Below are positions 39,421-63,245 of a DNA stretch of 64,000 nt, piece by piece. The notes beneath the pieces are model-generated. The model was not told the origin of the DNA and ran no database searches. It saw only the letters and a program-made list of their open reading frames with translations. Source of the stretch: Oscillospiraceae bacterium (lineage in GTDB: Bacteria > Bacillota > Clostridia > Oscillospirales > Oscillospiraceae). Position 1 is the first letter of the stretch; every line of letters begins with the position of its first letter. A program made the position numbers and the translations under genes. Where the stretch lies: contig CADARY010000014.1 of NCBI GenBank assembly GCA_902790375.1, forward strand, positions 1-64,000. Reading direction: 5' to 3'.

Positions 39421-40008
39421 ATGTCTTTGATTGATGCAGCGATCGACTATGTGGATTTACTGTTTCGGGATAATGCCGGCGGGCATGACGCCGCGCATAC
39501 CCTGCGTGTCTATCAAAACGCAATGCTGATTGCCCAGCAGGAACCCGACTGCGATCTGGAAACGGTAGCGTTGAGCGCTCTGCTTCACGACGCAGACGAT
39601 CACAAGCTGTTCCATACAGAGAACAATGCCAACGCAAGATCATTTTTGACGCAGCACGATGTTGATTCAAATAAGATAGAACGTATCTGCAAAGCAATTA
39701 ACGCTGTTTCATTCAGCCAGAACAGGGGGAAACGCCCGGACAGCCTGGAAGGGATGATCGTTCAGGACGCAGATCGTCTCGATGCCATCGGCGCGATCGG
39801 GATTGCTCGAACCTTTGCGTTCGGCGGTGAGCACGGCAGACCTTTGGAAGCGACGCTTCAGCATTTCCAGGATAAGCTGCTGCTATTAAAAGATGAGATG
39901 AACACCGAGACAGCAAAGAGAATCGCCGAAAGCCGACACCTCTTCATGGTGAGCTTCTTACAGGAATTTGATGAGGAGACAAAAGCTGCCCGCCCGGGAA
40001 GCTCGTAA
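39421..40008 (+). CDS. HD-domain phosphohydrolase
   Basis: 195 residues, ribosome site GAGGTGAGT. The metal site is clear: GGHDAAHTLRVYQNA (first His), LLHDADDHK (His-Asp pair) and VQDADRLDAIGAIGIART (late Asp). This is the YedJ/YpgQ-like branch, soluble nucleotide or pyrophosphate hydrolases of about 200 residues. Substrate unknown. It stands alone between the MITE and the convergent PEP-synthase-like gene, and could in part use the promoter of the dead phosphoesterase (TATAAT near 39052). Confidence 0.85.
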   Translation: MSLIDAAIDYVDLLFRDNAGGHDAAHTLRVYQNAMLIAQQEPDCDLETVALSALLHDADDHKLFHTENNANARSFLTQHDVDSNKIERICKAINAVSFSQNRGKRPDSLEGMIVQDADRLDAIGAIGIARTFAFGGEHGRPLEATLQHFQDKLLLLKDEMNTETAKRIAESRHLFMVSFLQEFDEETKAARPGSS

Positions 40009-40012
40009 ACGC

Positions 40013-40058
40013 AAAAAACGCCCGCCGACTGCTTCCATTTCAAAGCAGCCGACGGGTG
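40013..40058 (-). terminator. Terminator of the pyrG-gltBD operon
   Basis: On the minus strand CACCCGTCGGCTGCTT pairs with AAGCAGTCGGCGGGCG and is followed by six T. It lies 34 nt after the last gene of the operon. A near-identical copy is at 63195-63240. Confidence 0.85.
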
Positions 40059-42694: not shown

Positions 42695-44086
42695 TCAGAT
42701 CAGGTTTGTATAGCCCATCAAGAAGCGGTCGACCTCGGCGGCGCAGGCGCGCCCCTCGGCTATGGCGTGGACGACCAGGGACTGGCCGCGGTGCATATCG
42801 CCGGCTGTGAAGATGTGCGGGACACTGGTCTGGAAGGAACCCGCCTCGGTTTTCACGGTGCGGTCAAGCTCCACGCCAAAGGCGGCGCAGACATCCTCCC
42901 GACAGCCGGCAAAGCCCGTCGCGGCGATCAAAAGCTCACAGGGAAGCCGCGTCCCATCCTTCGTGACAATGGCTGTGAGATTGCCCGCTTCATCGGTTTC
43001 AAGCGAGGATAGGCTCTGCGAGAACAGGCGCGGATCCTTGCCAAAAACGGCCTCTGCTTCCTCCTGCGCGTAGTCCTGCGGGAGGCTGCCGTCCGGCGCA
43101 AGATAATCCTCCTTCGCCCGGCGCACGAGCTGCACGACACTTTTGCAGCCCTGGCGGATGGAGCTTGCCACGCAGTCGCTCGCGGTATTGCCGGTGCCGA
43201 TGACAATGACGTTTTTCCCAGCGGCCGAGGGAACGGCGGGGGAGAGATCGAACTGCTGCCGCTCTACGGCGGCGGGCAGAAAGTCCATGGCAAAGCACAC
43301 ACCCGAAACACCCTCCGCGTCGATGCCGAGCGGGCGCGGCTTCTCCGCCCCACAGCAGAGCACCACAGCGTCGTATTCCAGCATGAGGCGTTGGGCGACC
43401 GCGGGATCGGCGGCGTCAAGGCCGGTCACAAAGCTCACGCCCTCGCGCGTCATGAGTTCAATCCGGCGACGGACGACGGATTTCGGCAGCTTCATGTTCG
43501 GGATGCCGTACATCAAAAGCCCGCCGGGGTATTGCCGCTTTTCGATCACCGTGACGCAGTGCCCCCGGTGATTGAGCTGGTCTGCCACCGCGAGTCCCGC
43601 CGGACCGGAGCCCACCACCGCCACATTTTTTCCCGAGCTGTGGGGCGAAAAGCGCGGCTCCATCAGATGGTGAGCGAAAGCGTACTCGATGATGCTGAGC
43701 TCGTTATCGTGTACCGTGACGGAATCACCGTACAGCCCGCAGGTACAGGCCTGCTCGCAGAAGGCGGGGCAGACGCGGCCGGTAAACTCCGGGAAGTTAT
43801 TTGTTTTCAAGAGTCTTGTCAGCGCGTGGGCGAAGTTTCCGTCCATGACACTGTCGTTCCACTCGGGGATCAGATTGTGCAGCGGACAGCCGAGCTGCTT
43901 TCCCTCAAACTGCACCCCGGCCTGACAGAAGGGGACGCCGCAGTTCATGCACCTTGCGCCCTGCTCGCGCCGCTGCTCCTCCGAACTCGAAAGATGAAAC
44001 TCCTCCCAGTCCCTGACGCGCTCCAAAGGCGGACGCACAGGATTCGCCCTGCGCTCATATTCCAGAAATCCGGTCGGTTTTCCCAT
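42695..44086 (-). CDS. gltD: Glutamate synthase (NADPH), small subunit
   Basis: 463 residues. The N-terminal Cys-rich part for two 4Fe-4S clusters is intact (ARCMNCGVPFCQ, GCPLHNLIPEWND, CPAFCEQACTCGL). The FAD Rossmann motif is VAVVGSGPAGLAVA and the NADPH one is VIVIGTGNTASDCV. It passes electrons from NADPH to the large subunit, which makes glutamate from glutamine and 2-oxoglutarate. It starts 13 nt after gltB. Confidence 0.95.
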   Translation of the reverse strand: MGKPTGFLEYERRANPVRPPLERVRDWEEFHLSSSEEQRREQGARCMNCGVPFCQAGVQFEGKQLGCPLHNLIPEWNDSVMDGNFAHALTRLLKTNNFPEFTGRVCPAFCEQACTCGLYGDSVTVHDNELSIIEYAFAHHLMEPRFSPHSSGKNVAVVGSGPAGLAVADQLNHRGHCVTVIEKRQYPGGLLMYGIPNMKLPKSVVRRRIELMTREGVSFVTGLDAADPAVAQRLMLEYDAVVLCCGAEKPRPLGIDAEGVSGVCFAMDFLPAAVERQQFDLSPAVPSAAGKNVIVIGTGNTASDCVASSIRQGCKSVVQLVRRAKEDYLAPDGSLPQDYAQEEAEAVFGKDPRLFSQSLSSLETDEAGNLTAIVTKDGTRLPCELLIAATGFAGCREDVCAAFGVELDRTVKTEAGSFQTSVPHIFTAGDMHRGQSLVVHAIAEGRACAAEVDRFLMGYTNLI

Positions 44087-44099
44087 TCTATCGACCTCC

Positions 44100-50235
<6,136 letters not shown>

Positions 50236-50331: not shown

Positions 50332-50375
50332 AAAAAAAGACGCCCATCCGGGCGCAAAAAACCCAGATGAACGTC
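50332..50375 (-). terminator. Leader terminator (attenuator) of pyrG
   Basis: On the minus strand GACGTTCATCTGGG / CCCGGATGGGCGTC with a 9-nt loop (wobble pairs inside), followed by seven T (50338-50332). It starts about 10 nt after the predicted transcription start and 112 nt before the ATG, so transcripts must read through it to express the operon. Confidence 0.75.
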
Positions 50376-50383
50376 TTTGTTCA
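50368..50383 (-). promoter_or_regulatory. Hexaloop antiterminator candidate in the pyrG leader
   Basis: TGAAC-[AAAGAC]-GTTCA on the minus strand: a 5-bp stem with a hexaloop that has A at position 1 and G at position 4. Its 3' arm is part of the 5' arm of the terminator at 50332-50375, so the two structures exclude each other. It matches the element at 50637-50654 of the divergent glnN leader. Confidence 0.55.
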
Positions 50384-50391
50384 ACACGGTG

Positions 50392-50420
50392 AGAATACAC
50401 CGTGAATGCCGCTTTGTCAA
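50392..50420 (-). promoter_or_regulatory. Promoter of pyrG operon, with palindrome around the -10 box
   Basis: TTGACA (50420-50415), 17-bp spacer, TATTCT (50397-50392). The -10 box is flanked by CACGGTG and CACCGTG, a 7-bp inverted repeat that could bind a repressor. Confidence 0.75.
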
Positions 50421-50596
50421 GACTTATCTATGGCATACTGCGCACAGCGCAGGAGCTTCTGCGTCCGAAGGCGTAACGCAGCTATCCTTCGCTGACGCTC
50501 AGGATGACAGGATCGTCACATTCGTTCAATTTGCCGAAAGATAATATCCGGGAGATTCCTTCGTCAATGCAAATCGGTGAAAAATTTTGAACTAAC

Positions 50597-50625
50597 TTGA
50601 CAAAGGCCTCAAACAGGTCTATACT
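50597..50625 (+). promoter_or_regulatory. Promoter of the glnN operon
   Basis: Consensus TTGACA (50597-50602), 17-bp spacer, TATACT (50620-50625). The expected start is near 50631. Confidence 0.85.
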
Positions 50626-50636
50626 CGCGAGCGTCT

Positions 50637-50654
50637 TGAGACAACGACGTCTCA
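50637..50654 (+). promoter_or_regulatory. Hexaloop antiterminator candidate in the glnN leader
   Basis: TGAGAC-[AACGAC]-GTCTCA: a 6-bp stem (7 with a T-G pair) with a hexaloop with A at position 1 and G at position 4. Its 5' arm and loop overlap the 5' arm of the terminator at 50638-50694, so only one can form. Confidence 0.55.
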
Positions 50655-50694
50655 GAGGGCTAAGTGCCCCCTGTACGTCGTTGTCTCTTTTTTT
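50638..50694 (+). terminator. Leader terminator (attenuator) of glnN
   Basis: Perfect 13-bp stem GAGACAACGACGT / ACGTCGTTGTCTC (50638-50650, 50675-50687) followed by seven T. An inner stem CAGAGGGC / GCCCCCTG caps it. It starts within ~7 nt of the predicted transcript start and ends 22 nt before the glnN ATG, so it is an attenuator rather than the end of another gene. Confidence 0.85.
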
Positions 50695-50716: not shown

Positions 50717-52810
50717 ATGAAATCCGTACCGGAAACATTCGGCAGTCTTGTATTTGACGACCGCACCATGAAGGCCCGCCTCTCCGGCGAGGTCTACCGC
50801 GCCATGAAGCAGACCATGAAGAAGGGACAGCCCCTTGACCCCAAGGTGGCAAACGCCGTTGCGACCAGCATGCGCGACTGGGCAGTGGAGCACGGCGCGA
50901 CCCACTTTACCCACTGGTTCCAGCCCCTCACCGGCGTCACGGCGGAGAAGCACGACGGCTTTATCTCCCCGGCCCCCGACGGCGGCGTCATCATGGAGTT
51001 TTCCGGCAAGGAGCTCATTCGCGGGGAACCGGACGCCAGTTCTTTCCCATCCGGCGGCCTGCGCGCGACCTTTGAGGCGAGAGGCTACACCGCCTGGGAC
51101 CCCACCTCCTACGCCTTTATCAAGGGAAAGGTGCTCTGCATCCCGACGGCTTTCTGCTCCTACGGCGGCGAAGCGCTGGATAAAAAGACCCCGCTGCTGC
51201 GTTCCATGGAGGCGCTGAACCGGGAAGCGCTGCGTATCCTGCGTCTCTTCGGTAATTCCGACGTCACCCACGTCACCTGCTCGGTCGGGCCGGAACAGGA
51301 ATACTTCCTTGTGGACCGCGAGCTCTATAAAAAGCGCCGCGACCTCATCTATACCGGTCGGACGCTCTTCGGCGCAAAGCCGCCCAAGGGGCAGGAGCTG
51401 GACGACCACTACTTCGGCGTCATCAAGCCGCGTGTGCAGGCCTATATGGAGGAGCTGAACGAGGAGCTCTGGAAGCTCGGCATCCTTGCCAAGACCGAAC
51501 ACAACGAGGTAGCGCCCTGCCAGCATGAGTTGGCACCCATCTATTCCACCACCAATATCGCCACCGACCACAACCAGCTCACCATGGAGATCATGCAGAA
51601 GGTCGCCGAGAAGCACGGCCTGATGTGTCTCCTGCATGAAAAGCCCTTCGCCGGCGTCAACGGTTCCGGCAAGCACAACAACTGGTCCATCGCCACCGAC
51701 ACGGGCGTGAACCTTCTCTCTCCCGGCGAATCCCCCTATGAAAACGCGCAGTTTCTGCTGTTTCTGATCGCGGTCATTGAAGCTGTGGACGAGTATGCCG
51801 ACCTCCTGCGGGCAAGCGTCGCCACCGCCGGCAACGACCACCGCCTGGGTGCCAACGAAGCACCTCCTGCCGTGGTATCCATCTTCCTGGGTGACGAGTT
51901 GACGGCGGTGCTGGACGCGCTTGAGAAAGAGCAGCCCTATGCCGGAACGGAAAAGTCTGAGATGATGCTGGGCGTGCTGACCCTGCCGCGCTTCCTGCGC
52001 GATACCACCGACCGCAACCGTACCTCGCCCTTCGCCTTTACGGGCAACAAGTTTGAATTTCGTATGGTGGGATCCTCTAACTCCATCGCCTGCGCCAACA
52101 TCATGCTCAACTCTGCTGTGGCGGACACGCTGCGGCGGTTTGCCGATGAACTTGAAAAGAGCACGGACTTTGACGCAACACTCCATGCCCTGCTGATCGG
52201 GAGCCTGAAGGCCCACAAGCGTATCCTCTTCAACGGCAACGGCTATGACGATGCCTGGATCGAGGAGGCAACGCAGGTGCGCGGCCTGCACAATCTGCGC
52301 ACTACGCCGGACGCCATGAAGGCCCTGCTGGAGCCCAAGAATATGGAGATGCTGCTCAGGCAGAAGGTCTATTCTGAAACGGAGCTGCGCTCGCGCTATG
52401 AGATCATGCTGGAAAACTACTGCAAGACCATTGTCATCGAGGCCAACACCATGGCCGAGATGACGCGCAAGGAGATCCTGCCCGCCGTGACGAAGTACTG
52501 CGCCGCCGTGGCGGAGGGCGCTGGCAAGAAGCGCGCGCTTGTGCCGACGTTGCCCTGCACCTATGAGACAGGACTCGTGGAAAAGCTCTCCGTCCTGTCC
52601 GATCAGATCGAGAAGAGCGTGGAGGGACTGGAGGGTACGCTTGTGAAGCTCTCCACGGTTTCGGAGATCACCGCACTGTCCGAAGCGATCCGGGATAAAC
52701 TGCTTCCGAAAATGGCGGAGCTTCGCGCCGTGGCGGACGAGGCGGAGGTCATGACGGAAAAGGAATACTGGCCCTTCCCGACTTACGGCGAGATTCTTTT
52801 CGCCATGTAA
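50717..52810 (+). CDS. glnN: Glutamine synthetase, type III
   Basis: 697 residues, ribosome site AAAGGGTG. This is the long GSIII form, typical of Bacteroides and Clostridia. It has the [10 protein letters not shown] signature, [17 protein letters not shown] (metal-binding Glu), [18 protein letters not shown] (GSIII signature), [16 protein letters not shown] and [22 protein letters not shown]. It forms glutamine from glutamate, ammonia and ATP. It heads the rightward nitrogen operon; glmS follows 12 nt later. Expression is probably set by the leader attenuator. Confidence 0.96.
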
Positions 52811-52822
52811 AGGAGAAACATC

Positions 52823-54646
52823 ATGTGTGGGATCGTTGGATTTACCGGAGCGCGCCAAGCTGCGCCCGTTCTGCTTGGAGGACTGGAAAGACTCGAATAC
52901 CGGGGCTATGACTCCGCCGGGATCGCCGTATTGAACGGTGAGCAAATTCAGGTGGAGAAGGTCAGCGGACGCATCGCCAAGCTGCGCGAGAAGACGGAGG
53001 ACGGCGCTTTGACGCCGGGCTTTGCCGGGATCGGGCACACCCGCTGGGCGACCCACGGCGCGCCGACGGATCAAAACGCCCATCCGCACCTGTCCAATGA
53101 CGGGCGCTTCGCCGTGGTGCACAACGGCATTATCGAAAACTATCTGGAGCTTCGCAAGGAGCTTATCCGGGACGGCTATGTTTTTCAGAGCGAGACGGAC
53201 ACGGAAACCATTGTCCATCTGCTGGAAAAATACTATGACGGCGAAATCAAAACCGCCGTGATGAAAACCGCTGCGCGGCTGGAGGGGTCTTACGCCCTCG
53301 GCATCGTCTGCACCGACACGCCGGACGCCCTCTATGTCGTGCGGGAGGCAAGCCCGCTGATCCTCGGCATCGGCGTGGGGGAGAACTACTTTGCCTCGGA
53401 CGTGACAGCGCTGGTGTCCCATACGAAAAACGTGATCTACCTGGAGGACGGCGAGTTTGCAAAGCTCACGCCGGACAGCATCACGGTCTGCGACTGTGCC
53501 GGGCGCGAGATCAAAAAGCCCATCAGCCGCGTGACCTGGAGCGTGGAGGCGGCGGAAAAGGGCGGGTATGAGCACTTCATGCTCAAGGAGATCATGGAGC
53601 AGCCCGCCGCAGTCAAGGCCGCCCTTGCCCCGCGCATCCACGATGGGCGCGTACAGCTCGACGGCTTTGAGCTGAGCGCAGAGGAGCTCAAGGGTATCAG
53701 CAAGATCGTCATTACCGCCTGCGGCTCGGCCTATTACGCCGGCTGCTCCGGGCGTTACGCCATTGAACGTCTCTGCCGCGTCCCGGTACAGGTGGAGCTT
53801 GCCAGTGAGCTGCGCTATTCCGACCCCATGGTGGATGAGCACACATTGGTTCTGGTGATCTCTCAGTCCGGCGAGACGGCGGACACCATCGCCGCGCTCC
53901 GGGAATGCAAGGCGCGCGGGGCGAAGGTGATCGGCATTGTGAACGTGGTGGGCAGCACCATTGCCAAGCTTTCCGATCATGTGCTCTATACCTTCGCCGG
54001 GCCGGAGATCGCCGTTGCCACCACCAAGGGCTACACCACACAGCTCACAGTTCTGTATCTCTTCGCCCTGTACATGGCCGAAAAGCTCGGGCGTATCGAC
54101 GCGGACAGCTGCACCGCCCTGGTGAAGGAGCTGCAGCACCTGCCGCGGAGAATCCAGCAGACCATCGACATGAACTGGCAGCTCCCGAAGCTTGCAAGCC
54201 GCTATTCCAGCCGCTCGCTCTTCTTCATCGGCCGCAACACGGACTACGCCGTGGCGCTGGAGGGCGCGCTCAAGATGAAGGAGATCTCCTACCTCCACGC
54301 CGAATCCTACGCGGCCGGGGAGCTCAAGCACGGCACCATCGCCCTCATCGAGGAAAATCAGCCGGTCATCGCCGTCTGCTGCAACGAGGCGCTCATGGAT
54401 AAGACGCTATCAAATATCGTGGAGGTCAAGGCCCGCGGGGCGAAGGTGCTGGCCCTGTCCTTCAAGGGCAATAAAAAAATCGTCTCTCAGGCGGACGACG
54501 TGATTTTCATCCCGCGTGTGGAGACGGTGTTCTCGGCAGCGCTCGCGGTCGTGCCGCTGCAGTTGCTTGCCTATTATGCAGCGAAAGAAAAGGGCTGCGA
54601 TATCGACAAGCCGAAGAATCTGGCAAAATCCGTGACAGTGGAGTGA
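52823..54646 (+). CDS. glmS: Glutamine-fructose-6-phosphate aminotransferase (isomerizing)
   Basis: 607 residues, ribosome site AAAGGAGAA. N-terminal glutaminase with Cys2 ([15 protein letters not shown]) and GHTRWATHG. Two SIS domains follow ([45 protein letters not shown]), and the C-terminus [12 protein letters not shown] is complete. It supplies glucosamine-6-phosphate for the cell wall. No glmS ribozyme fits in the 12-nt gap to glnN, so control is through the operon. Confidence 0.97.
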
Positions 54647-54651
54647 GTACG

Positions 54652-56187
54652 ATGCAGGAAAAAATCCTTGTTCTGGATTTCGGCGGTCAGTATAACCTCC
54701 TGATCGCAAGGCGTATCCGACAGCAGCATGTCTATGCCGAAGTGAAGTCTTATAACGGCATCACTTTGGAACAGATACAGAGGGAAGGCTATAAGGGCAT
54801 TGTCTTTACCGGCGGGCCGAACAGTGTCTATGATCCTGCCTCGCCGCACTTCGACCCCGGAATCCTCAGACTCGGTATCCCGATCCTCGGCATCTGCTAT
54901 GGTCATCAGATTCTGGCATGGATGGCGGGCGGCGAGATTCAGGCCGCCGAGAACGCCAGCGAGTACGGCCGGGTAGCACTCAGCGCTGCCGGCGGCGTCC
55001 TGTTTGATGAGGTTCCGCCGGAAAGTGTCTGCTGGATGAGTCACATGGATTTCGTGAGCGCTGTCCCAGTCGGCTTCCATATTACCGCCTCTACGGAAAA
55101 CTGTCTCTGTGCGGCCATGGCGGATGATGAGCGAAGGCTCTACGGGGTGCAGTTTCATCCGGAGGTCACCCACACCGCCTTCGGCAGTCAGATCCTGCGC
55201 AATTTCTTGTTCAAGGTCTGCGTGTGCCGGGGAGACTGGACAATGGAGGATTTCGTCTCCGCATCCATAGAGAGATACCGTCAGGAATTGTCCGGCAAGA
55301 ATGCTCTGTGCGCCCTGTCCGGCGGGGTGGACTCCGCCGTGGCGGCGGTACTGCTGCATCGGGCCATCGGGGATCGCCTGACTTGCGTTTTCGTGGATCA
55401 TGGCCTGCTGCGCAAAGGAGAGCGGGAGCAGGTGGTCAGGGTGTTCCGCCGCCAGTTTCAGATGAATCTGATCATTGTTGACGCGCGGGAGCGCTTTCTC
55501 GCAAGGCTCAAGGGAGTCACGGAGCCGGAGCGGAAAAGGAAAATCATCGGCGAGGAGTTTATCCGCGTCTTTGAGGAAGAAGCTGTGAGACTCGGAAAAC
55601 AGGACGTGCTGGTGCAGGGAACGATTTACCCGGACGTGGTGGAATCCGGCGCGGGCAGCGCGGCTGTGATCAAGAGCCACCACAATGTAGGGGGCCTGCC
55701 GGAGAAGATCGGCTTTGAGCGCATTGTTGAGCCCCTGCGGGAGCTTTTTAAGGATGAGGTCCGCGCTGTGGGACTGGAGCTGGGGATCCCGGAAGAACTG
55801 GTCATGCGCCAGCCGTTTCCGGGACCAGGCCTCGCCATCCGCGTGATGGGCGAGATCACGGAGGAAAAGCTCGCCGTGCTCCGGGAGGCGGACGCCATTT
55901 TCCGGGAGGAGATCATGAGGGCCGGGCTTACGGATGCGCCGAGCCAGTATTTCGCCGTGCTGACGGATAACCGCAGCGTCGGCGTCATGGGTGACGCCCG
56001 TACCTATGGCTGGGTCATCGCCCTGCGTGCGGTGTCCACTGACGACTTCATGACTGCTGACTGGTCGCGCCTGCCCTATGAGCTTCTGGCAAAGGCATCC
56101 TCCCGCATTACAAATGAAGTCCGTTCTGTCAGCCGCGTGGTCTATGACATCACGTCCAAACCGCCCGCAACGGTGGAGTGGGAATAA
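54652..56187 (+). CDS. guaA: GMP synthase (glutamine-hydrolysing)
   Basis: 511 residues from the ATG at 54652, 8 nt after GGAG; a GTG at 54643 overlapping the glmS stop is the other option. Class-I glutaminase with Cys in [12 protein letters not shown] and His in [11 protein letters not shown]. The ATP pyrophosphatase loop is [14 protein letters not shown]. The C-terminal dimer domain runs from [15 protein letters not shown] to [18 protein letters not shown]. It turns XMP into GMP. Confidence 0.96.
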
Positions 56188-56238
56188 AAAAAGACAGCCG
56201 CCACCCTGGAAAAGTCACGGCTGCCTTTATAGAGGTAA

Positions 56239-56270
56239 TGGAGGGCAAAAGCACTCATCACCGCCCTCCA
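56239..56270 (+). terminator. Hairpin between guaA and the ammonium transporter gene
   Basis: Perfect TGGAGGGC / GCCCTCCA stem followed by CTTTAAC. A second stem just upstream (CAGCCG / CGGCTG, 56193-56225) has a minus-strand T-run instead. Together they probably lower, but need not stop, readthrough into the transporter gene. Confidence 0.5.
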
Positions 56271-56310
56271 CTTTAACAAAGAAATACAAAGAAGTCAAGG
56301 AGGGCTTTCT

Positions 56311-58035
56311 ATGTCTGTTGAGTTTTGGTATCTGATTGGCGCGGCACTGGTTTTCTGGATGCAGGCCGGCTTTGCAATGGTTGAGACAGGATTTACCCGT
56401 GCGAAAAATGCGGGAAACATCATCATGAAAAACCTGATGGATTTCTGCATCGGCACCGTAGTGTTTTCGTTATTGGGATATACGCTGATGATGGGGGAGG
56501 ACACTTTCTTCGGCCTCATCGGCAAGCCGAATCTCCAGCTGTTCACACACTATAAGGAGTTCATTGCCTCTCCGGCAGAGGGCTTCACCGGCGCAAGCAC
56601 TTTCGTGTTTAACCTTGTGTTCTGCGCCACGACCGCGACGATCGTCTCCGGCGCAATGGCAGAGCGCACAAAGTTTTCCGCGTACTGTATCTATTCCGGC
56701 ATTATCAGCCTCGTGGTATACCCAATCGAGGCGCACTGGATCTGGGGCGGCGGCTGGCTCAGCAAGCTCGGCTTTCACGATTACGCGGGCTCCTGCGCAA
56801 TCCATATGGTGGGCGGCATCGCAGCCTTGATCGGTGCCATCCTGCTGGGCGCGAGAATCGGAAAATATGTAAAGGACCCGGACGGCAAGGTTGTCAAAAT
56901 TAACGCCATTCCCGGCCACTCGATCCCGCTCGGAGCCTTGGGCGTGTTTATCCTCTGGCTCGGCTGGTACGGGTTCAACGGGGCGGCGGCGACTTCTCCC
57001 TCGGAGCTCTCGTCCATCTTCCTCACGACGACCATCGCACCGGCCGTCGCTACCTGCACCACCATGATCTACACCTGGAAGAAGAACGGGAAACCGGATG
57101 TGTCCATGTGCCTCAACGCTTCTCTTGCCGGCCTTGTTGCCATTACGGCGGGCTGTGACGCGATGGATGCCGTGGGTGCAATCGTCGTGGGCATTGTTTC
57201 GGGCATTCTGGTCGTTGTGGTTGTGGAAACTCTGGATCTGAAGCTGCATGTCGATGATCCTGTCGGCGCTGTGGGTGTCCATATGGCAAACGGAATGTGG
57301 GGTACGCTTGCGGTCGGCCTGCTTGCAAATCCCGATGCCCCTGCCGGACTGAAGGGTCTTTTCTATACCGGCTCTTTTACACAGCTCGGCATCCAGACGC
57401 TGGGACTTGTGACAGTCGCTGTTTATACGACGGTATTGCTGTTTATTACCTTCAGACTCATTGAAAAGACAAACGGCCTGCGCGCCGATCCTGCGGATGA
57501 ACTGATCGGCCTGGACGTGAGTGAACACGGTTTACCCAGTGCTTATGCGGACTTCGCCCCAGCGGTGAGCAAATACACGGAGTATGGCATGACTGGTGCT
57601 GACAGCGTCGTAACCGGGACTGTTCCTCCGGCAGAGGCCATTTCGGTCAGGCGTGAGACCGCTTTACGCCCGGACGGCCACAAGTTTACCAAGGTTGAAA
57701 TCGTCTTCAAGGAAGAAAAACTCTATGCTCTCAAGGATGCCATGAGCAGACTCGGCATCACCGGCATGACAGTTTCGCACGTCATGGGCTACGGCATCCA
57801 GAAGGGGCAGGTGGAGTATTACCGCGGTGTCGCAGTGGAAACCGACCTGCGGCCCAAGGTGCAGATGGATATCGTGGTCAGCGCCATCCCAGTGCGGGAT
57901 GTGATCGAAACCGCAAAGAAGGTGCTGTATACCGGGCATATCGGTGACGGCAAGATCTTTGTCTACGATGTGGAGAACGTCGTGAAGGTGCGCACCGGTG
58001 AAGAAGGATATGACGCCCTGCAGGATGTGGAATAA
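56311..58035 (+). CDS. amt: Ammonium transporter fused to a C-terminal PII regulatory domain
   Basis: 574 residues, ribosome site AAGGAGGG. Residues 1-410 are an Amt/Mep/Rh channel with eleven membrane helices: FWMQAGFAMVETGFTRAKN, GAMAERTKFSAYC, the pore-histidine segment DYAGSCAIHMVGG, and the second pore His in GAVGVHMANGMWG. After a ~60-residue linker comes a full PII domain (about 460-570): TKVEIVFKEEKLYALKDAM, the T-loop GYGIQKGQVEYYRG, and HIGDGKIFVYDVENVVKVRTGE with the ATP-binding B and C loops. The T-loop Tyr that is uridylylated in proteobacterial PII (Tyr51) is Val here, so control would be by ADP/ATP/2-oxoglutarate binding only. Asparagine synthetase follows 44 nt later. Confidence 0.93.
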   Translation: MSVEFWYLIGAALVFWMQAGFAMVETGFTRAKNAGNIIMKNLMDFCIGTVVFSLLGYTLMMGEDTFFGLIGKPNLQLFTHYKEFIASPAEGFTGASTFVFNLVFCATTATIVSGAMAERTKFSAYCIYSGIISLVVYPIEAHWIWGGGWLSKLGFHDYAGSCAIHMVGGIAALIGAILLGARIGKYVKDPDGKVVKINAIPGHSIPLGALGVFILWLGWYGFNGAAATSPSELSSIFLTTTIAPAVATCTTMIYTWKKNGKPDVSMCLNASLAGLVAITAGCDAMDAVGAIVVGIVSGILVVVVVETLDLKLHVDDPVGAVGVHMANGMWGTLAVGLLANPDAPAGLKGLFYTGSFTQLGIQTLGLVTVAVYTTVLLFITFRLIEKTNGLRADPADELIGLDVSEHGLPSAYADFAPAVSKYTEYGMTGADSVVTGTVPPAEAISVRRETALRPDGHKFTKVEIVFKEEKLYALKDAMSRLGITGMTVSHVMGYGIQKGQVEYYRGVAVETDLRPKVQMDIVVSAIPVRDVIETAKKVLYTGHIGDGKIFVYDVENVVKVRTGEEGYDALQDVE

Positions 58036-58079
58036 GGATTTCCTGCGCGCGTATCAATACAACAGATAGGAGAATCATC

Positions 58080-59663
58080 ATGTGTTCGATTATGGGCTTC
58101 ACGTCCGGTACATTGACGCCGGAGCAATTCATGCCGTTTTTTGAGCGCACGGTCTCCCGCGGCCCGGATATGAGCCGCGTGGAGCAGGCCGGGAGAGGGT
58201 ATCTCTGCTTCCATCGCCTCGCCATCATGGGCCTGCATGAGGAAGGAATGCAGCCCTTTCATCTCAAGGGAGATATGTGCGTCTGCAACGGTGAGCTGTA
58301 CCTCTTCCGGCCGCTGAAAAAAGAGCTGGAGGATGAGGGCTATGTCTTTCAGAGCGATTCCGACTGCGAGATCATCCTGCCGCTTTACCACAGGTACGGG
58401 GTTGAGATGTTCAAAAAGCTGGACGCGGAGTTTGCCATGATCCTCTATGATGCCGAAACAAACAGCTTCATCGCCGCCCGCGACCCGATCGGTATTCGCC
58501 CGCTGTTTTATGGAGAGCTCTCCGACGGCAGCATGGTCTTTGCAAGTGAGGCCAAGAACCTGGTGGGGCTCTGCGCCGAGATCAAACCCTTCCCTCCGGG
58601 ACACTACTGGAAGGATGGAGAATTTGTCCGCTATGCCGACCTCACCACGGTCGATTCCTATATCGACGGGGATCTGGACGAGATCTGCGCGGGGATCCGC
58701 GAAAAGCTGATCCTCGGCGTGGACAAGCGCCTGGATGCGGATGCGCCCCTGGGCTTTCTGCTCTCCGGCGGTCTGGATTCGAGCCTTGTATGTGCCATCT
58801 CCGCCAAGATTCTCGGCAAACATGTGCGTACCTTTGCCATCGGCATGGATGTGGATGCCATCGACCTCAAGTACGCCCGCACGGCGGCGGACTTCATCGG
58901 GGCCGAGCATACGGAAGTGTACATGACCCGGCAGCAGGTGCTGGACTCTCTGGAGGAGGTCATTGCTGCCCTCGGCACCTGGGACATCACCACGATCCGG
59001 GCCAGCATGGGCATGTACCTCTGCTGCAAGGCGATCCACGAGCAGACGGACGTGCGCGTCCTGCTGACCGGGGAGATCAGCGACGAGCTCTTCGGCTACA
59101 AGTACACGGACTTTGCGCCGAGCCCCGAGGAATTTCAGCGGGAGGCAAAGAAGCGCATCGACGAAATCCATATGTACGACGTGCTGCGCGCCGACCGCTG
59201 CATTTCGGTAAATTCCCTGGAAGCCCGCGTCCCCTTCGGCGACCTGGAGTTTGTAAAATACGTCATGTCCATCGACCCGAGGCTCAAGATGAACACCTAC
59301 AACATGGGAAAATACCTGCTGCGCCATGCCTTTGAAAAGGATCACCTGCTGCCTGACGAGATTCTGTGGCGGCAGAAGGCTGCCTTCTCCGACGCGGTGG
59401 GACACTCGATGGTTGACGATCTGAAGGCTTATGCCGGGAGCCTGTACACCGACGAGGAATTTGAGCGGAAACGGATGGAGTATGACTATGGCCGCCCCTT
59501 TACCAAGGAGAGCCTACTGTACCGGGAGATCTTCGAGAAATACTATCCCGGTCAGGCGGAGATGATCGCGGACTTCTGGATGCCGAACAAGAGCTGGCCG
59601 GGCTGCGATGTGAATGACCCTTCCGCCCGTGTACTTGCAAACTACGGCGCAAGCGGAACCTGA
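58080..59663 (+). CDS. asnB: Asparagine synthase (glutamine-hydrolysing)
   Basis: 527 residues. Cys2 of the type-2 glutaminase (MCSIMGFTSG), VCNGELY, and the synthetase ATP loop LLSGGLDSSLVCAIS, with LTGEISDELFGYKY and LEARVPFGD. Ending WMPNKSWPGCDVNDPSA is typical of the E. coli-type enzyme. It makes asparagine from aspartate with glutamine nitrogen. The last ~60 codons are repeated at 63246-63428. Confidence 0.95.
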   Translation: MCSIMGFTSGTLTPEQFMPFFERTVSRGPDMSRVEQAGRGYLCFHRLAIMGLHEEGMQPFHLKGDMCVCNGELYLFRPLKKELEDEGYVFQSDSDCEIILPLYHRYGVEMFKKLDAEFAMILYDAETNSFIAARDPIGIRPLFYGELSDGSMVFASEAKNLVGLCAEIKPFPPGHYWKDGEFVRYADLTTVDSYIDGDLDEICAGIREKLILGVDKRLDADAPLGFLLSGGLDSSLVCAISAKILGKHVRTFAIGMDVDAIDLKYARTAADFIGAEHTEVYMTRQQVLDSLEEVIAALGTWDITTIRASMGMYLCCKAIHEQTDVRVLLTGEISDELFGYKYTDFAPSPEEFQREAKKRIDEIHMYDVLRADRCISVNSLEARVPFGDLEFVKYVMSIDPRLKMNTYNMGKYLLRHAFEKDHLLPDEILWRQKAAFSDAVGHSMVDDLKAYAGSLYTDEEFERKRMEYDYGRPFTKESLLYREIFEKYYPGQAEMIADFWMPNKSWPGCDVNDPSARVLANYGASGT

Positions 59664-59685
59664 GCGGGAATGGAGATGCTGAAAC

Positions 59686-60420
59686 ATGAGACGTGATTGG
59701 AAAGCTGAGTACGAAAAACGTGTAGTCTGGATTCGTGCGCTCCTTGCACGCAGCGGTGCAAAAGGAATTGTCTACGGAAATTCCGGCGGCAAAGACAGTG
59801 CTCTGACGGGTATTCTCTGCAAAGGGGCCTGTCAGGATACTGTGGGCTTGATCATGCCCTGCGCCTCAAAACGCAACTTCGGCCAGGACACAGAGGATGG
59901 TCTTGCCGTCGCAAAGCAGTATGGCATCGAAACACGCACAATAGATCTGACTTCCGTTCGGGAACAGGAGGTAAAAGCTCTGGGAACGGCAACTTCTCTG
60001 ACAGAACTTGCCCTTGCAAATATCGCGCCCAGGCTTCGCATGACGACACTCTATGCAGTGGCGGCATCAGAAAATCGTATTGTCGCCGGCACAGGCAATC
60101 GCAGCGAGGCCTATATGGGTTATTTCACAAAATGGGGAGACGGCGCATATGACTTTAATCCGATCGGCGATCTGACAGTCACTGAAATTTTTGCCTTTCT
60201 GACATATCTGAACGCTCCGCCGCAGATCATTGACAAAGCTCCGTCAGCTGGGCTGTTTGACGGTCAGACGGACGAAGCGGAAATGGGTATCAGTTACCGG
60301 GTGATCGACCAGTATCTGCTGAATGGCCAGGCAGATAAATCAGAGCTTGCCACCATACGCCGCTTCCACGAGCGGAGCGAACATAAACGCCAGCCGATCC
60401 CGATTTATAAGGGAGAATAA
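59686..60420 (+). CDS. nadE: NAD+ synthetase, ammonia-dependent
   Basis: 244 residues, no glutaminase domain, so it uses free ammonia. ATP loop IVYGNSGGKDSALTGIL, and the NaAD/ATP site VAGTGNRSEAYMGYFTKWGDG with DFNPIGDLTVTEIFAF. It turns deamido-NAD into NAD. It lies 22 nt after asnB, and purB follows 1 nt after its stop codon, so it is in the operon. Confidence 0.93.
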   Translation: MRRDWKAEYEKRVVWIRALLARSGAKGIVYGNSGGKDSALTGILCKGACQDTVGLIMPCASKRNFGQDTEDGLAVAKQYGIETRTIDLTSVREQEVKALGTATSLTELALANIAPRLRMTTLYAVAASENRIVAGTGNRSEAYMGYFTKWGDGAYDFNPIGDLTVTEIFAFLTYLNAPPQIIDKAPSAGLFDGQTDEAEMGISYRVIDQYLLNGQADKSELATIRRFHERSEHKRQPIPIYKGE

Positions 60421-60421
60421 C

Positions 60422-61855
60422 ATGCACGACATTTATCAAAACCCCCTTTGTTCCCGCTATGCCGGAAATGAGATGCAAAGGATCTTCTCCGATCAGCAAA
60501 AGTTTTCCACATGGCGAAGGCTCTGGCTTGCGCTGGCGGAGAGTGAACAGGCCCACGGCCTGCCCATCACAGACGCGCAGCTTGACGAGATGCGCCTTCA
60601 TCTGGACGACATTGACTATGACCTCGCGGCTCGGAAGGAAAAGGAGCTCCGCCATGACGTAATGGCACATGTGCACACCTTTGCCGCCGCCTGCCCGAAA
60701 GCCGCGCCGATCATCCATCTGGGCGCCACCTCCTGCTATGTGGGGGACAATACGGATATCCTCAATCAGCGCGATGCTCTGCTGCTCATTCGCCGCAAGC
60801 TTCTGTCCGTCATGCGGGCGCTTGCAGACTTCGCCGGGAAAAACAGGGATCTCCCGACGCTTGCCTTTACCCACTTTCAGGCAGCCCAGCCCACGACTGT
60901 GGGAAAACGCGCCTGTCTCTGGCTTCAGGATCTGGAGATGGATCTGGGGCAGTTGGATTTTGCATTATCCCAGCTGCGGCTTCTGGGGTGTAAGGGCACG
61001 ACGGGAACGGCAGCGAGCTTTCTGAAGCTCTTCGATGGGGACGAAGAAAAGGTGCAGGAGCTCGAGCACATGATCGCGGAGAAGATGGGCTTTACAGCTT
61101 GCCAGCAGATAAGCGGGCAGACCTATTCCCGCAAGCAGGATTTCGCCGTGCTGCAGGTTCTCAGCGGCATTGCGCAAAGTGCTTCCAAATTCGCCGGGGA
61201 TATCCGGCTGCTGAGCCACCTCAAGGAGCTGGAGGAACCCTTTGAGAGCGGACAGATCGGCTCGTCCGCCATGGCCTATAAGCGAAACCCCATGCGCAGT
61301 GAACGCATTGCGGCGCTGGCGCGCTATGTGATGTGTGATCTTCAAAACGCGGCTTTCACGGCGTCTTCCCAGTGGCTGGAACGCACGCTGGATGATTCCG
61401 CCAACCGCCGCATCGCCATCCCGGAAGCGTTTCTTGCCTGTGACGGGATTTTGAATCTATATGAGAATATTGTCTCCGGCCTGCGTCTGTTCCCGGCGGT
61501 GATGCAAAAGCATCTCCGGGAGGAACTGCCGTTTCTTGCCACCGAGAATATTCTGATGTTCTGCGTGAAGGAGAAGAACGGAGACCGCCAGCTCCTGCAT
61601 GAACGCCTTCGCGTCCACGCGGTCGCAGCGGCGGAACAGGTCAAGGTATATGGCAGGGACAATGATCTTCTGCAGCGGATCGCAGAGGATCCGACATTCG
61701 GCCTGACAGCGGAGGAACTGGAAGCGCTTGCGGACCCGTCATCCTTTACCGGTATGGCCGGATCACAGTGCATGCGTTATCTTAATGACGTGATCAAACC
61801 GATACTGGAACATAATCAGGCAGACATGCAGAAAGCAGACGAGATCAATGTGTAA
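60422..61855 (+). CDS. purB: Adenylosuccinate lyase
   Basis: 477 residues from the ATG one base after the nadE stop, ribosome site AAGGGAG in the nadE end. Fumarase/aspartase fold: RHDVMAHVHTFAAACP (catalytic His), HLGATSCYVGDN, THFQAAQPTTVGKRA, and the signature loop GSSAMAYKRNPMRSE. It cleaves adenylosuccinate and SAICAR. It is placed just before purA, the partner step from IMP to AMP. Confidence 0.95.
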   Translation: MHDIYQNPLCSRYAGNEMQRIFSDQQKFSTWRRLWLALAESEQAHGLPITDAQLDEMRLHLDDIDYDLAARKEKELRHDVMAHVHTFAAACPKAAPIIHLGATSCYVGDNTDILNQRDALLLIRRKLLSVMRALADFAGKNRDLPTLAFTHFQAAQPTTVGKRACLWLQDLEMDLGQLDFALSQLRLLGCKGTTGTAASFLKLFDGDEEKVQELEHMIAEKMGFTACQQISGQTYSRKQDFAVLQVLSGIAQSASKFAGDIRLLSHLKELEEPFESGQIGSSAMAYKRNPMRSERIAALARYVMCDLQNAAFTASSQWLERTLDDSANRRIAIPEAFLACDGILNLYENIVSGLRLFPAVMQKHLREELPFLATENILMFCVKEKNGDRQLLHERLRVHAVAAAEQVKVYGRDNDLLQRIAEDPTFGLTAEELEALADPSSFTGMAGSQCMRYLNDVIKPILEHNQADMQKADEINV

Positions 61856-61867
61856 GGGGAGATAAAA

Positions 61868-63142
61868 ATGCTGACATCTGTAGTAGGGACAAACTGGGGC
61901 GACGAAGGCAAGGGTCGTATGGTCGACATGCTCAGCGAGGCGTATGATGTCGTTGTGCGCTATCAGGGCGGCAACAACGCCGGGCACACGGTCGTGAATG
62001 AATACGGAAAGACCGTGCTGAATCTGCTGCCCTCCGGCATCATGCGGAAGAATACCGCGAACATCCTCGGCCCCGGCATGGTCGTTGACCTTGAACACCT
62101 CTCAAAGGAGACCGACGCGATTCGGACGCGCGGCGTGCCGATCGGCCCGGAGAATCTGATCCTCAGCTCCCGTGCAACGATCTGCCTGCCGTATCATCGG
62201 CTTCTGGATGTGCTGGAGGAAGAACGCCTCGGCAGCAAAAGCTTTGGCTCCACCCGGCGTGGGATATCTCCGGTGTATGCGGACAAGTATATGAAAAAGA
62301 CCCTTCGCATGGGTGACCTGCTCTATCCGACTACGCTAAGGAAAAAGGTCGAAGATCTTCTGGAGTGGAAGAACCTCGCCGTTGAAAAAGGCTACGGACA
62401 CAGTCCAATCAAAGCCGATGAGATCATGGAATGGCTCATCGCCTATGGGAAGCCCTTTGTGCCGTATATTCAGGATACCGGGCTATATCTGCAAAACGCA
62501 ATAAACAAAGGGAAATCTGTCCTGTTTGAAGCGCAGCTCGGCGCGTTGCGGGATATAGACTTTGGAATCTATCCCTTCACCTCCGCATCCTCAACACTTT
62601 CTGCCTATGCTCCCATCGGCGCGGGGGTGCCCTTTGCACATCTGGATCAGGTGATCGGGATCATGAAGGCGTATTCCAGCTGTGTTGGTGCAGGCCCCTT
62701 TCCCTGTGAACTCTTCGGGGAAGAGGGAAGTGCATTGCGGGAAGCTGGGGCAGAATACGGCGCCGCCACCGGCAGACCGCGCAGAGTCGGCGGTTTCGAT
62801 GTTGTCGCATCCCGCTACGGAACCAGGATGCAGGGATGCACTGCGCTTGCGCTGACCAAGCTGGATGTGCTGTCCTATATGGAGAAAATTCCGGTCTGCG
62901 TTGCCTATGATGTGAGAGGTGAGCGCGTTGAGGATTTTCCAACAGTGATCGATGATCTGAATGCAGCGAAACCGATTTACGAATATCTGCCCGGTTTTCA
63001 CTGTGATATCAGTACCTGCCGCCATCTTGAAGATCTGCCGCAGGCAGCACGAGACTATATTGCCTTCGTAAAATCCTCCGTGGGCTGCCCAATCCGTTAT
63101 GTGTCTGTCGGTGCAGAAAGGGACGCGATTATTGTCACGTGA
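61868..63142 (+). CDS. purA: Adenylosuccinate synthetase
   Basis: 424 residues, ribosome site AGGGGAG. GTP/IMP site VVGTNWGDEGKGRMVDML, GGNNAGHTVV, SSRATICLPYH, GSTRRGISPVYADK, and the switch region VGAGPFPCELFGEEG. It joins aspartate to IMP using GTP. Last gene of the rightward island. Confidence 0.95.
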   Translation: MLTSVVGTNWGDEGKGRMVDMLSEAYDVVVRYQGGNNAGHTVVNEYGKTVLNLLPSGIMRKNTANILGPGMVVDLEHLSKETDAIRTRGVPIGPENLILSSRATICLPYHRLLDVLEEERLGSKSFGSTRRGISPVYADKYMKKTLRMGDLLYPTTLRKKVEDLLEWKNLAVEKGYGHSPIKADEIMEWLIAYGKPFVPYIQDTGLYLQNAINKGKSVLFEAQLGALRDIDFGIYPFTSASSTLSAYAPIGAGVPFAHLDQVIGIMKAYSSCVGAGPFPCELFGEEGSALREAGAEYGAATGRPRRVGGFDVVASRYGTRMQGCTALALTKLDVLSYMEKIPVCVAYDVRGERVEDFPTVIDDLNAAKPIYEYLPGFHCDISTCRHLEDLPQAARDYIAFVKSSVGCPIRYVSVGAERDAIIVT

Positions 63143-63194: not shown

Positions 63195-63240
63195 AAAAAA
63201 CGCCCGCCGACTGCTCAACTTTCAAAGCAGCCGACGGGCG
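63195..63240 (-). terminator. Second copy of the pyrG-operon terminator
   Basis: CGCCCGCCGACTGCT / AGCAGCCGACGGGCG with six A before it, so it works as a terminator only for minus-strand transcripts, yet no minus-strand gene ends here. The ~50 bp including flanks are nearly identical to 40011-40062. On the plus strand it is a stem without T-run after purA. Confidence 0.7.
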
Positions 63241-63245
63241 TAAAC

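Follow-up and report, generated by a model that had tools for sequence, protein, structure and literature searches.

Single-hexaloop attenuators, probably read by NitR, in two divergent nitrogen-gene leaders of an Oscillospiraceae bacterium

In the 64,000-nucleotide stretch of Oscillospiraceae bacterium DNA analyzed here (assembly GCA_902790375.1, contig CADARY010000014.1, positions 1 to 64,000; hereafter the window), the CTP synthase gene pyrG on the minus strand and the type III glutamine synthetase gene glnN on the plus strand diverge from a gap of ~500 bp that contains two divergent promoters and two attenuators. Each leader carries one small hairpin with a six-nucleotide loop (hexaloop) that overlaps an intrinsic terminator, and we consider it likely that both leaders are transcription attenuators read through this single hexaloop by NitR, an antiterminator protein of the ANTAR type. 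On the glnN side, a predicted sigma-70 promoter (TTGACA-17-TATACT, 50597..50625, + strand, 11/12 consensus match) is followed after 10 nt by the hairpin TTGAGAC[AACGAC]GTCTCAG (50636..50655, +), identified by sequence, folding, and scan, with compensatory changes in relatives. It runs into an intrinsic terminator (50638..50694, +) that folds at -35.2 kcal/mol and is built from a 5' arm (50638-50650), an inner hairpin, a 3' arm (50675-50687), and a seven-T run (50688-50694). The pyrG leader has the same layout on the minus strand: a predicted sigma-70 promoter (TTGACA-17-TATTCT, 50392..50420, 10/12 consensus match), a hairpin 8 nt away (TGAAC[AAAGAC]GTTCA, 50368..50383; sequence, folding, and scan), and an intrinsic terminator folding at -27.8 kcal/mol (50332..50378 including the T run, 50378-50336 before it).

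The original prediction placed a small hairpin within about 10 nt of the predicted start in both leaders and had it overlap the 5' arm of the terminator, and the distances, sequences, and folds agree with both statements. Each full leader adopts the terminator form at the energies given above (z -8.1 for glnN and -6.6 for pyrG), while fragments limited to the hairpin fold at -10.7 (glnN) and -4.1 kcal/mol (pyrG). The hairpin-only fragments are weak compared with the full terminator folds, and keeping the hairpin in place would thus take a bound partner. In each leader, the hairpin and the terminator 5' arm use common bases, and the two forms are thus mutually exclusive. The element is an uninterrupted hairpin of 16-20 nt. 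In its loop, positions 1 and 4 are A and G, respectively (A1 and G4), the signature of ANTAR targets to which the original prediction had pointed; on both strands of the window, seven hairpins with a six-nucleotide loop overlap a terminator-like stem, and A1 and G4 occur together only in these two. An Rfam search of the window gave no family at the gathering score and only weak matches below the cut-off, and a pattern modeled on the glnN leader matched the window copy alone. A looser scan of the window above position 40000 returned weak matches at 56296 (+) and 62343 (-) that were judged to be chance; the apparent hexaloop before the ammonium transporter gene amt at 56296 is a Shine-Dalgarno sequence, AAGGAG, with a weak stem.

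Conservation of the hairpin was followed through the leaders of glnN relatives. Eighty loci were fetched, of which 79 (L051 lacks upstream sequence) gave, together with the window, 80 leaders. The hairpin is found in 50 of them and occurs twice in 10 of these 50, a count that omits L073 and L076, where it lies at the start codon and has no terminator. When the 400 nt upstream of glnN were scanned irrespective of loop letters, 51 six-nucleotide-loop hairpins overlapped a terminator, and 35 of them, at 34 loci, had A1 and G4; loops of 4, 5, 7, and 8 nt gave 12-20 hairpins, with the same letters in 0-3. On the antisense strand, the same scan found A1 and G4 in 7 of 19 six-nucleotide hairpins, a number that may include genuine elements belonging to divergent genes. 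Sought with the stem ignored, the loop motif CAANGRCG was flanked by the three adjoining pairs in 51 of its 62 occurrences upstream of glnN, in 14 of the 28 antisense ones, and in 4 of 92 inside the gene. Across 60 aligned hairpins, three pairs beyond the closing C-G change on both sides, with 40 cells so changed, a value reached by 0 of 500 shuffles; the closing C-G is invariant in this alignment since it was required for entry, and the number of pairs with two-sided changes (three) is not above the shuffles (3.0), whereas the cell count and score are. A wider set, made up of 79 units that belong to several genes, has 129 cells changed on both sides (0/500 shuffles). These alignments took hairpins with a stem of at least 4, so pairing is partly by selection, and the loop-size and loop-motif scans are the freer tests. 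In the two closest relatives (GlnN identity 96 and 97%), the glnN leader keeps its loop and stem, while the apical loop of the terminator differs.

The same element stands before other nitrogen genes. With loop position 1 restricted to A or G, position 4 to G, and the stem to at least 4, 132 elements were collected up to 420 nt upstream of nitrogen genes. The genes that the original prediction had named for such a search are represented by glnN (79), pyrG (15), amt (15), and gltB (2), and the element was also found before glnA (16), guaA (2), asnB (2), and an ANTAR gene (1). The closing pair is C-G in 124 of the 132, on which the counts of loop letters and upstream hairpins rest; position 2 of the loop is A in 116 of these 124. 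Two divergent elements share one gap, as in the window, in 13 of 41 stretches (window included; manual count). The original prediction would have been undermined by relatives that keep the terminator and lose the loop positions or the stem pairing. The relatives keep the loop, and the stem by compensation, apart from a few ANTAR-less ones that have a terminator without a proper hexaloop. In some genera, glnA of normal length (L171, L174, L184, L185, and L187) has a one-hexaloop leader with G rather than A at loop position 1.

As predicted, no ANTAR gene lies in the window. The host genome (3.1 Mb, 88.6% complete) contains one ANTAR match, a NitR-like protein of 196 aa encoded on contig C1 (PF03861, 49.6 bits against a cut-off of 27.3). 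A feature of the NitR type is a gene adjoining a glutamine synthetase gene, and the host gene has this placement, its neighbor being a glnA-like gene for a derived GlnA paralogue. Among 293 genomes of the class, sampled with a requested completeness of at least 90% and including the host genome, 119 have both the element and an ANTAR gene, 19 the element only, 37 ANTAR only, and 118 neither (p 2e-28, kinship ignored); where the element match has an E-value of 1e-4 or better, ANTAR is present in 91 of 98. Of the 78 class genomes with both among the matches listed, 33 have the element and the ANTAR gene no more than 10 kb apart. A second comparison started from the glnN leaders, with 50 of the 80 glnN loci submitted and 49 genomes searched: an ANTAR gene is present in 34/34 genomes with the hairpin, including six records named Spirochaetes, and in 11/15 without it (p 0.006, kinship ignored). 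Together, the host NitR, the co-occurrence, and the gene neighborhood support the ANTAR- or NitR-type antiterminator that was originally proposed, and from them we infer binding and antitermination.

ANTAR-less genomes were approached from the opposite direction, using the search model R1 and a second model, R2, trained on 77 of the 100 units listed plus the two window units. Seventeen ANTAR-less glnN leaders were picked for lacking a match to either model, so that absence of the element is partly by choice; 14 of them have no terminator-like stem within 300 nt upstream, or within the shorter stretch available, and a promoter of at least 10/12 is seen in six. The other three have such a stem, namely L222 (before the promoter), L229, and L242 (with a 3-bp hexaloop having G at position 1), and the leader of L240 looks by eye like a worn attenuator. 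Among seven ANTAR-less leaders with an R2 match, four have a clear element before glnN. One genome of the same genus as the host, G004, offers no natural test because it has no ANTAR gene and only a weak glutamine synthetase match.

Several observations weigh against NitR as the reader of a single hexaloop. No ANTAR match was found in 19 of the 138 class genomes with the element, or in 7 of the 98 with strong matches. Four of the genomes concerned, G132, G136, G200, and G346, are 96-100% complete and carry a clear element before glnN (loci L226, L219, L238, and L232), which slightly lowers our confidence; a diverged regulator, an assembly gap, or another hairpin reader could each account for them. 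In 101 genomes of the family, R1 matches 36 and an ANTAR gene is present in 62, and the two go together less closely: 28 genomes have both, 8 the element only, 34 ANTAR only, and 31 neither (p 0.018, kinship ignored). Part of the ANTAR-only family genomes have a single hexaloop that R1 scores low, such as GAAC[GAAGGC]GTTC before glnA. Within the host genome, the R1 score of the pyrG element is barely above false matches, the next being 24.1 bits. Five lower R1 matches (contigs C13, C37, C8, C40, and C30; 15.7-24.1 bits) were rejected, as they appear inside reading frames and have no promoter-hairpin-terminator context. By eye, no element lies upstream of the host's own glnA-nitR operon. The host also has a second glnN copy, 63% identical (contig C11, 29774-31858, - strand; L126), in whose leader a promoter and a GC-rich hairpin are present and the hexaloop signature is absent. 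Among the 124 elements, 14 have G at loop position 1, a departure from the A1 of the original prediction. Finally, the residues by which the ANTAR protein EutV contacts G4 differ in NitR: Tyr164 aligns with His (20/23) or Gln (3/23), and Arg142 with Ile in the NitR profile. The published requirement of EutV for two hexaloops also stands against a single-hexaloop target, as discussed below.

According to Ramesh et al. 2012 (PMC3369931), both hairpins of dual-hexaloop ANTAR targets are essential; Walshe 2022 finds one hexaloop to be the binding unit and both to be necessary for antitermination, and urges that single hexaloops be studied, while an actinobacterial ANTAR survey required two stems. 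It could therefore be that the leaders are read by ANTAR proteins and that their functional unit is nevertheless dual, with a second hexaloop in the leader or one common to tandem units on the EutV model. We regard this as unlikely. A hairpin (P1) within 25 nt upstream of the 124 elements is found 9, 1, and 0 times at stems of at least 3, 4, and 5 bp, compared with mononucleotide-shuffle means of 8.0, 2.5, and 0.9, and another comparison gave 1/124 versus 2.2. This chance-level result bears out the original prediction's doubt that one hairpin per leader may be a reduced form of the usual pair. Promoters of at least 9/12 precede 85 of the 124 elements (shuffles 11.7), and in 73 a distance of 6-16 nt separates the end of the -10 box from the hairpin (shuffles 2.7, at most 7). 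The hairpin thus begins no more than about 10 nt from where the transcript is expected to start, and a promoter that abuts the hairpin leaves no room for P1. Two hairpins do occur in the 10 glnN leaders noted above, and a strict terminator test found two units in 11 of 112 leaders (glnN 8, glnA 1, pyrG 1, amt 1); the other 40 of the 50 hairpin-bearing glnN leaders have one. The tandem units are 58-94 nt apart, with one exception at 270, and each has its own terminator, whereas published linkers between dual hexaloops span 2-25 nt. A first scan for dual hexaloops in 20 ANTAR regions with no R1 match found none, with single hexaloops present in those leaders, and a strict scan covering 249 records left four candidates, of which three look accidental. 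The fourth, at locus L211 before amt, is a convincing dual-hexaloop leader of the ANTAR type, GATGC[AACGAG]GCATC then AAAGC[AAAGGC]GCTTT before a terminator.

A slightly less probable explanation is that another RNA-binding protein or a small molecule reads the hairpin, as in a riboswitch or a PyrR-like or CAT-type antiterminator, and that the ANTAR link is indirect. The element-bearing genomes with no detected ANTAR gene, above all the four nearly complete ones, speak for it. The co-occurrence with ANTAR and the gene neighborhood argue the other way, as may the lack of an Rfam family at the cut-off in the window. The RAT element of LicT/BglG antiterminators, a stem of ~30 nt with internal loops, is not matched by an uninterrupted hairpin of 16-20 nt, and PyrR is a poor fit since the targets include glnN, amt, and glnA besides pyrG. 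We find it very improbable that these are ordinary terminators with no antiterminator, whose 5' arms are alike by chance or common descent. The weakness of the hairpin beside the terminator would suit such terminators, as would the ANTAR-less relatives L229 and L242, which keep a terminator without a proper hexaloop. They would not be expected to give A1/G4 six-nucleotide loops that stand out among loop sizes 4-8, the stem covariation of the wider set (in rows picked for their stem), or a loop motif that has its stem so much more often upstream of glnN than inside it. Single-hexaloop attenuation by NitR remains our preferred reading. The element differs from the published dual-hexaloop target: it is a promoter-proximal attenuator with a single hexaloop, sometimes with two units in series.

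The NitR protein and its neighbor offer hints about the signal. The modeled NitR structure shares the whole-length fold of EutV (6WSH, 6WW6; PMC8934654), and the NitR residues aligned with EutV Lys149, Glu160, and Met172 are invariant or nearly so. Of 23 NitR sequences, 21 have N, H, Q, or C (His in the host) in place of the phospho-acceptor aspartate of phosphorylated ANTAR response regulators such as EutV and Rv1626, and Asp is kept in L143 and L168. The NitR receiver is a pseudo-receiver and is probably not switched by phosphorylation. In the host (contig C1, L002:4342-6315) and at loci L128-L179, the NitR gene sits beside a derived, shortened GlnA paralogue. GlnA proteins fall into two groups separated by one branch with a support of 100/100. 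The first (15 proteins, 14 of 442-443 aa and one cut at 396) has the flap motif GYEAP, and this NitR type was found by tblastn near 0 of 15. The second (31 proteins of 383-440 aa, mostly ~403) has an altered flap, with Lys at the Glu position in 25 and Glu kept in two, and NitR lies nearby in 27 of 31; to both counts, overlapping loci (L091, L093, L110, and L111) contribute a few duplicate or truncated entries. The other locatable active-site residues are mostly retained in the second group. The sequences suggest a dedicated sensor or partner of NitR, and the GlnA-like protein is our best sensor candidate; it is also possible that it is an enzyme for another substrate. A literature search on glutamine synthetase pseudoenzymes returned nothing on point.

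Behind the attenuators lie two runs of genes. On the plus strand, glnN (50717..52810; 697 aa, Pfam GSIII_N) is followed by glmS, guaA, an amt-PII fusion, asnB, nadE, purB, and purA (52823..63142, assigned by Pfam domains), so that eight same-direction genes for nitrogen assimilation, amide-nitrogen use, and purine synthesis (50717-63142) have a single attenuator in front. After glnN, this run has no internal promoter of at least 10/12 and no strong plus-strand terminator. The guaA-amt gap (56187-56311) holds two inverted repeats and no recognizable promoter or hexaloop. On the minus strand, pyrG (48607..50220; Pfam CTP_synth_N) is followed by gltB and gltD for glutamate synthase (42695..48617; Pfam), then by a PPDK_N-domain protein of 862 aa and, finally, a strong terminator (40056-40021). 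The outer ends of both runs are marked by nearly identical strong palindromic terminators (40021-40056 and 63200-63241). The run from glnN to purA is probably one operon, as is the run on the pyrG side.

We propose the following mechanism. By default, the leader RNA would fold as an intrinsic terminator and transcription would end before glnN or pyrG. Active NitR, probably under nitrogen limitation, would bind the single hexaloop at the RNA 5' end as it emerges from RNA polymerase, with no upstream recruitment hairpin of the kind used by EutV targets. The NitR-held hairpin would tie up the terminator 5' arm and allow read-through into glnN-glmS-guaA-amt/PII-asnB-nadE-purB-purA and pyrG-gltB-gltD. 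NitR itself would probably be switched without phosphorylation, with the adjacent GlnA-like protein as candidate sensor. Taken jointly, these points could describe a system in which a 5'-terminal single hexaloop suffices, a phosphorylation-free NitR works under a shortened glutamine synthetase paralogue turned sensor, ammonia entry and many amide-nitrogen outlets (glutamine, glutamate, CTP, GMP, glucosamine, asparagine, and NAD) are placed on one RNA switch, and tandem units act as two gates in series; we put this combined picture forward tentatively, at somewhat below even odds.

The leaders share with the dual-hexaloop ANTAR targets of EutV, NasR, and AmiR described in PMC3369931 the A1/G4 hexaloop, the terminator overlap, the nitrogen genes downstream, and an ANTAR gene in the genome; the targets listed there include glutamine and glutamate synthesis, PII, and ammonium transport. 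They differ in having one hexaloop per terminator, right where the predicted transcript begins, in that paired hexaloops usually have their own terminators, and in a loop conserved further, to A at position 2. They would work like an ANTAR antiterminator target and fall outside the dual-hairpin definition. The nearest regulator is NitR of Clostridium saccharobutylicum, an ANTAR protein said in PMC6316151 to induce GS/GOGAT (glutamine synthetase/glutamate synthase) genes by antitermination under nitrogen limitation. The likeness, as described in that source, is one of ANTAR regulators of nitrogen genes; here, the neighbor is a shortened GlnA paralogue, glnN, pyrG, guaA, and amt are among the targets, and the RNA element has been delineated. 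A literature search, mostly of openly readable papers without supplements, found no report of one-hexaloop transcription antitermination, and a search on clostridial ANTAR attenuators gave nothing on point. In the current model, ANTAR proteins need two hexaloops, and published surveys look for two. Attenuators with one hexaloop, forming a large natural set, would either contradict this model or require it to be broadened, and they give templates for testing it. The set also outlines a nitrogen regulon in Clostridia, including many metagenome-assembled genomes from gut and rumen, and in some Spirochaetes, in which a relative of glutamine synthetase may serve as the sensor for an RNA-binding regulator.
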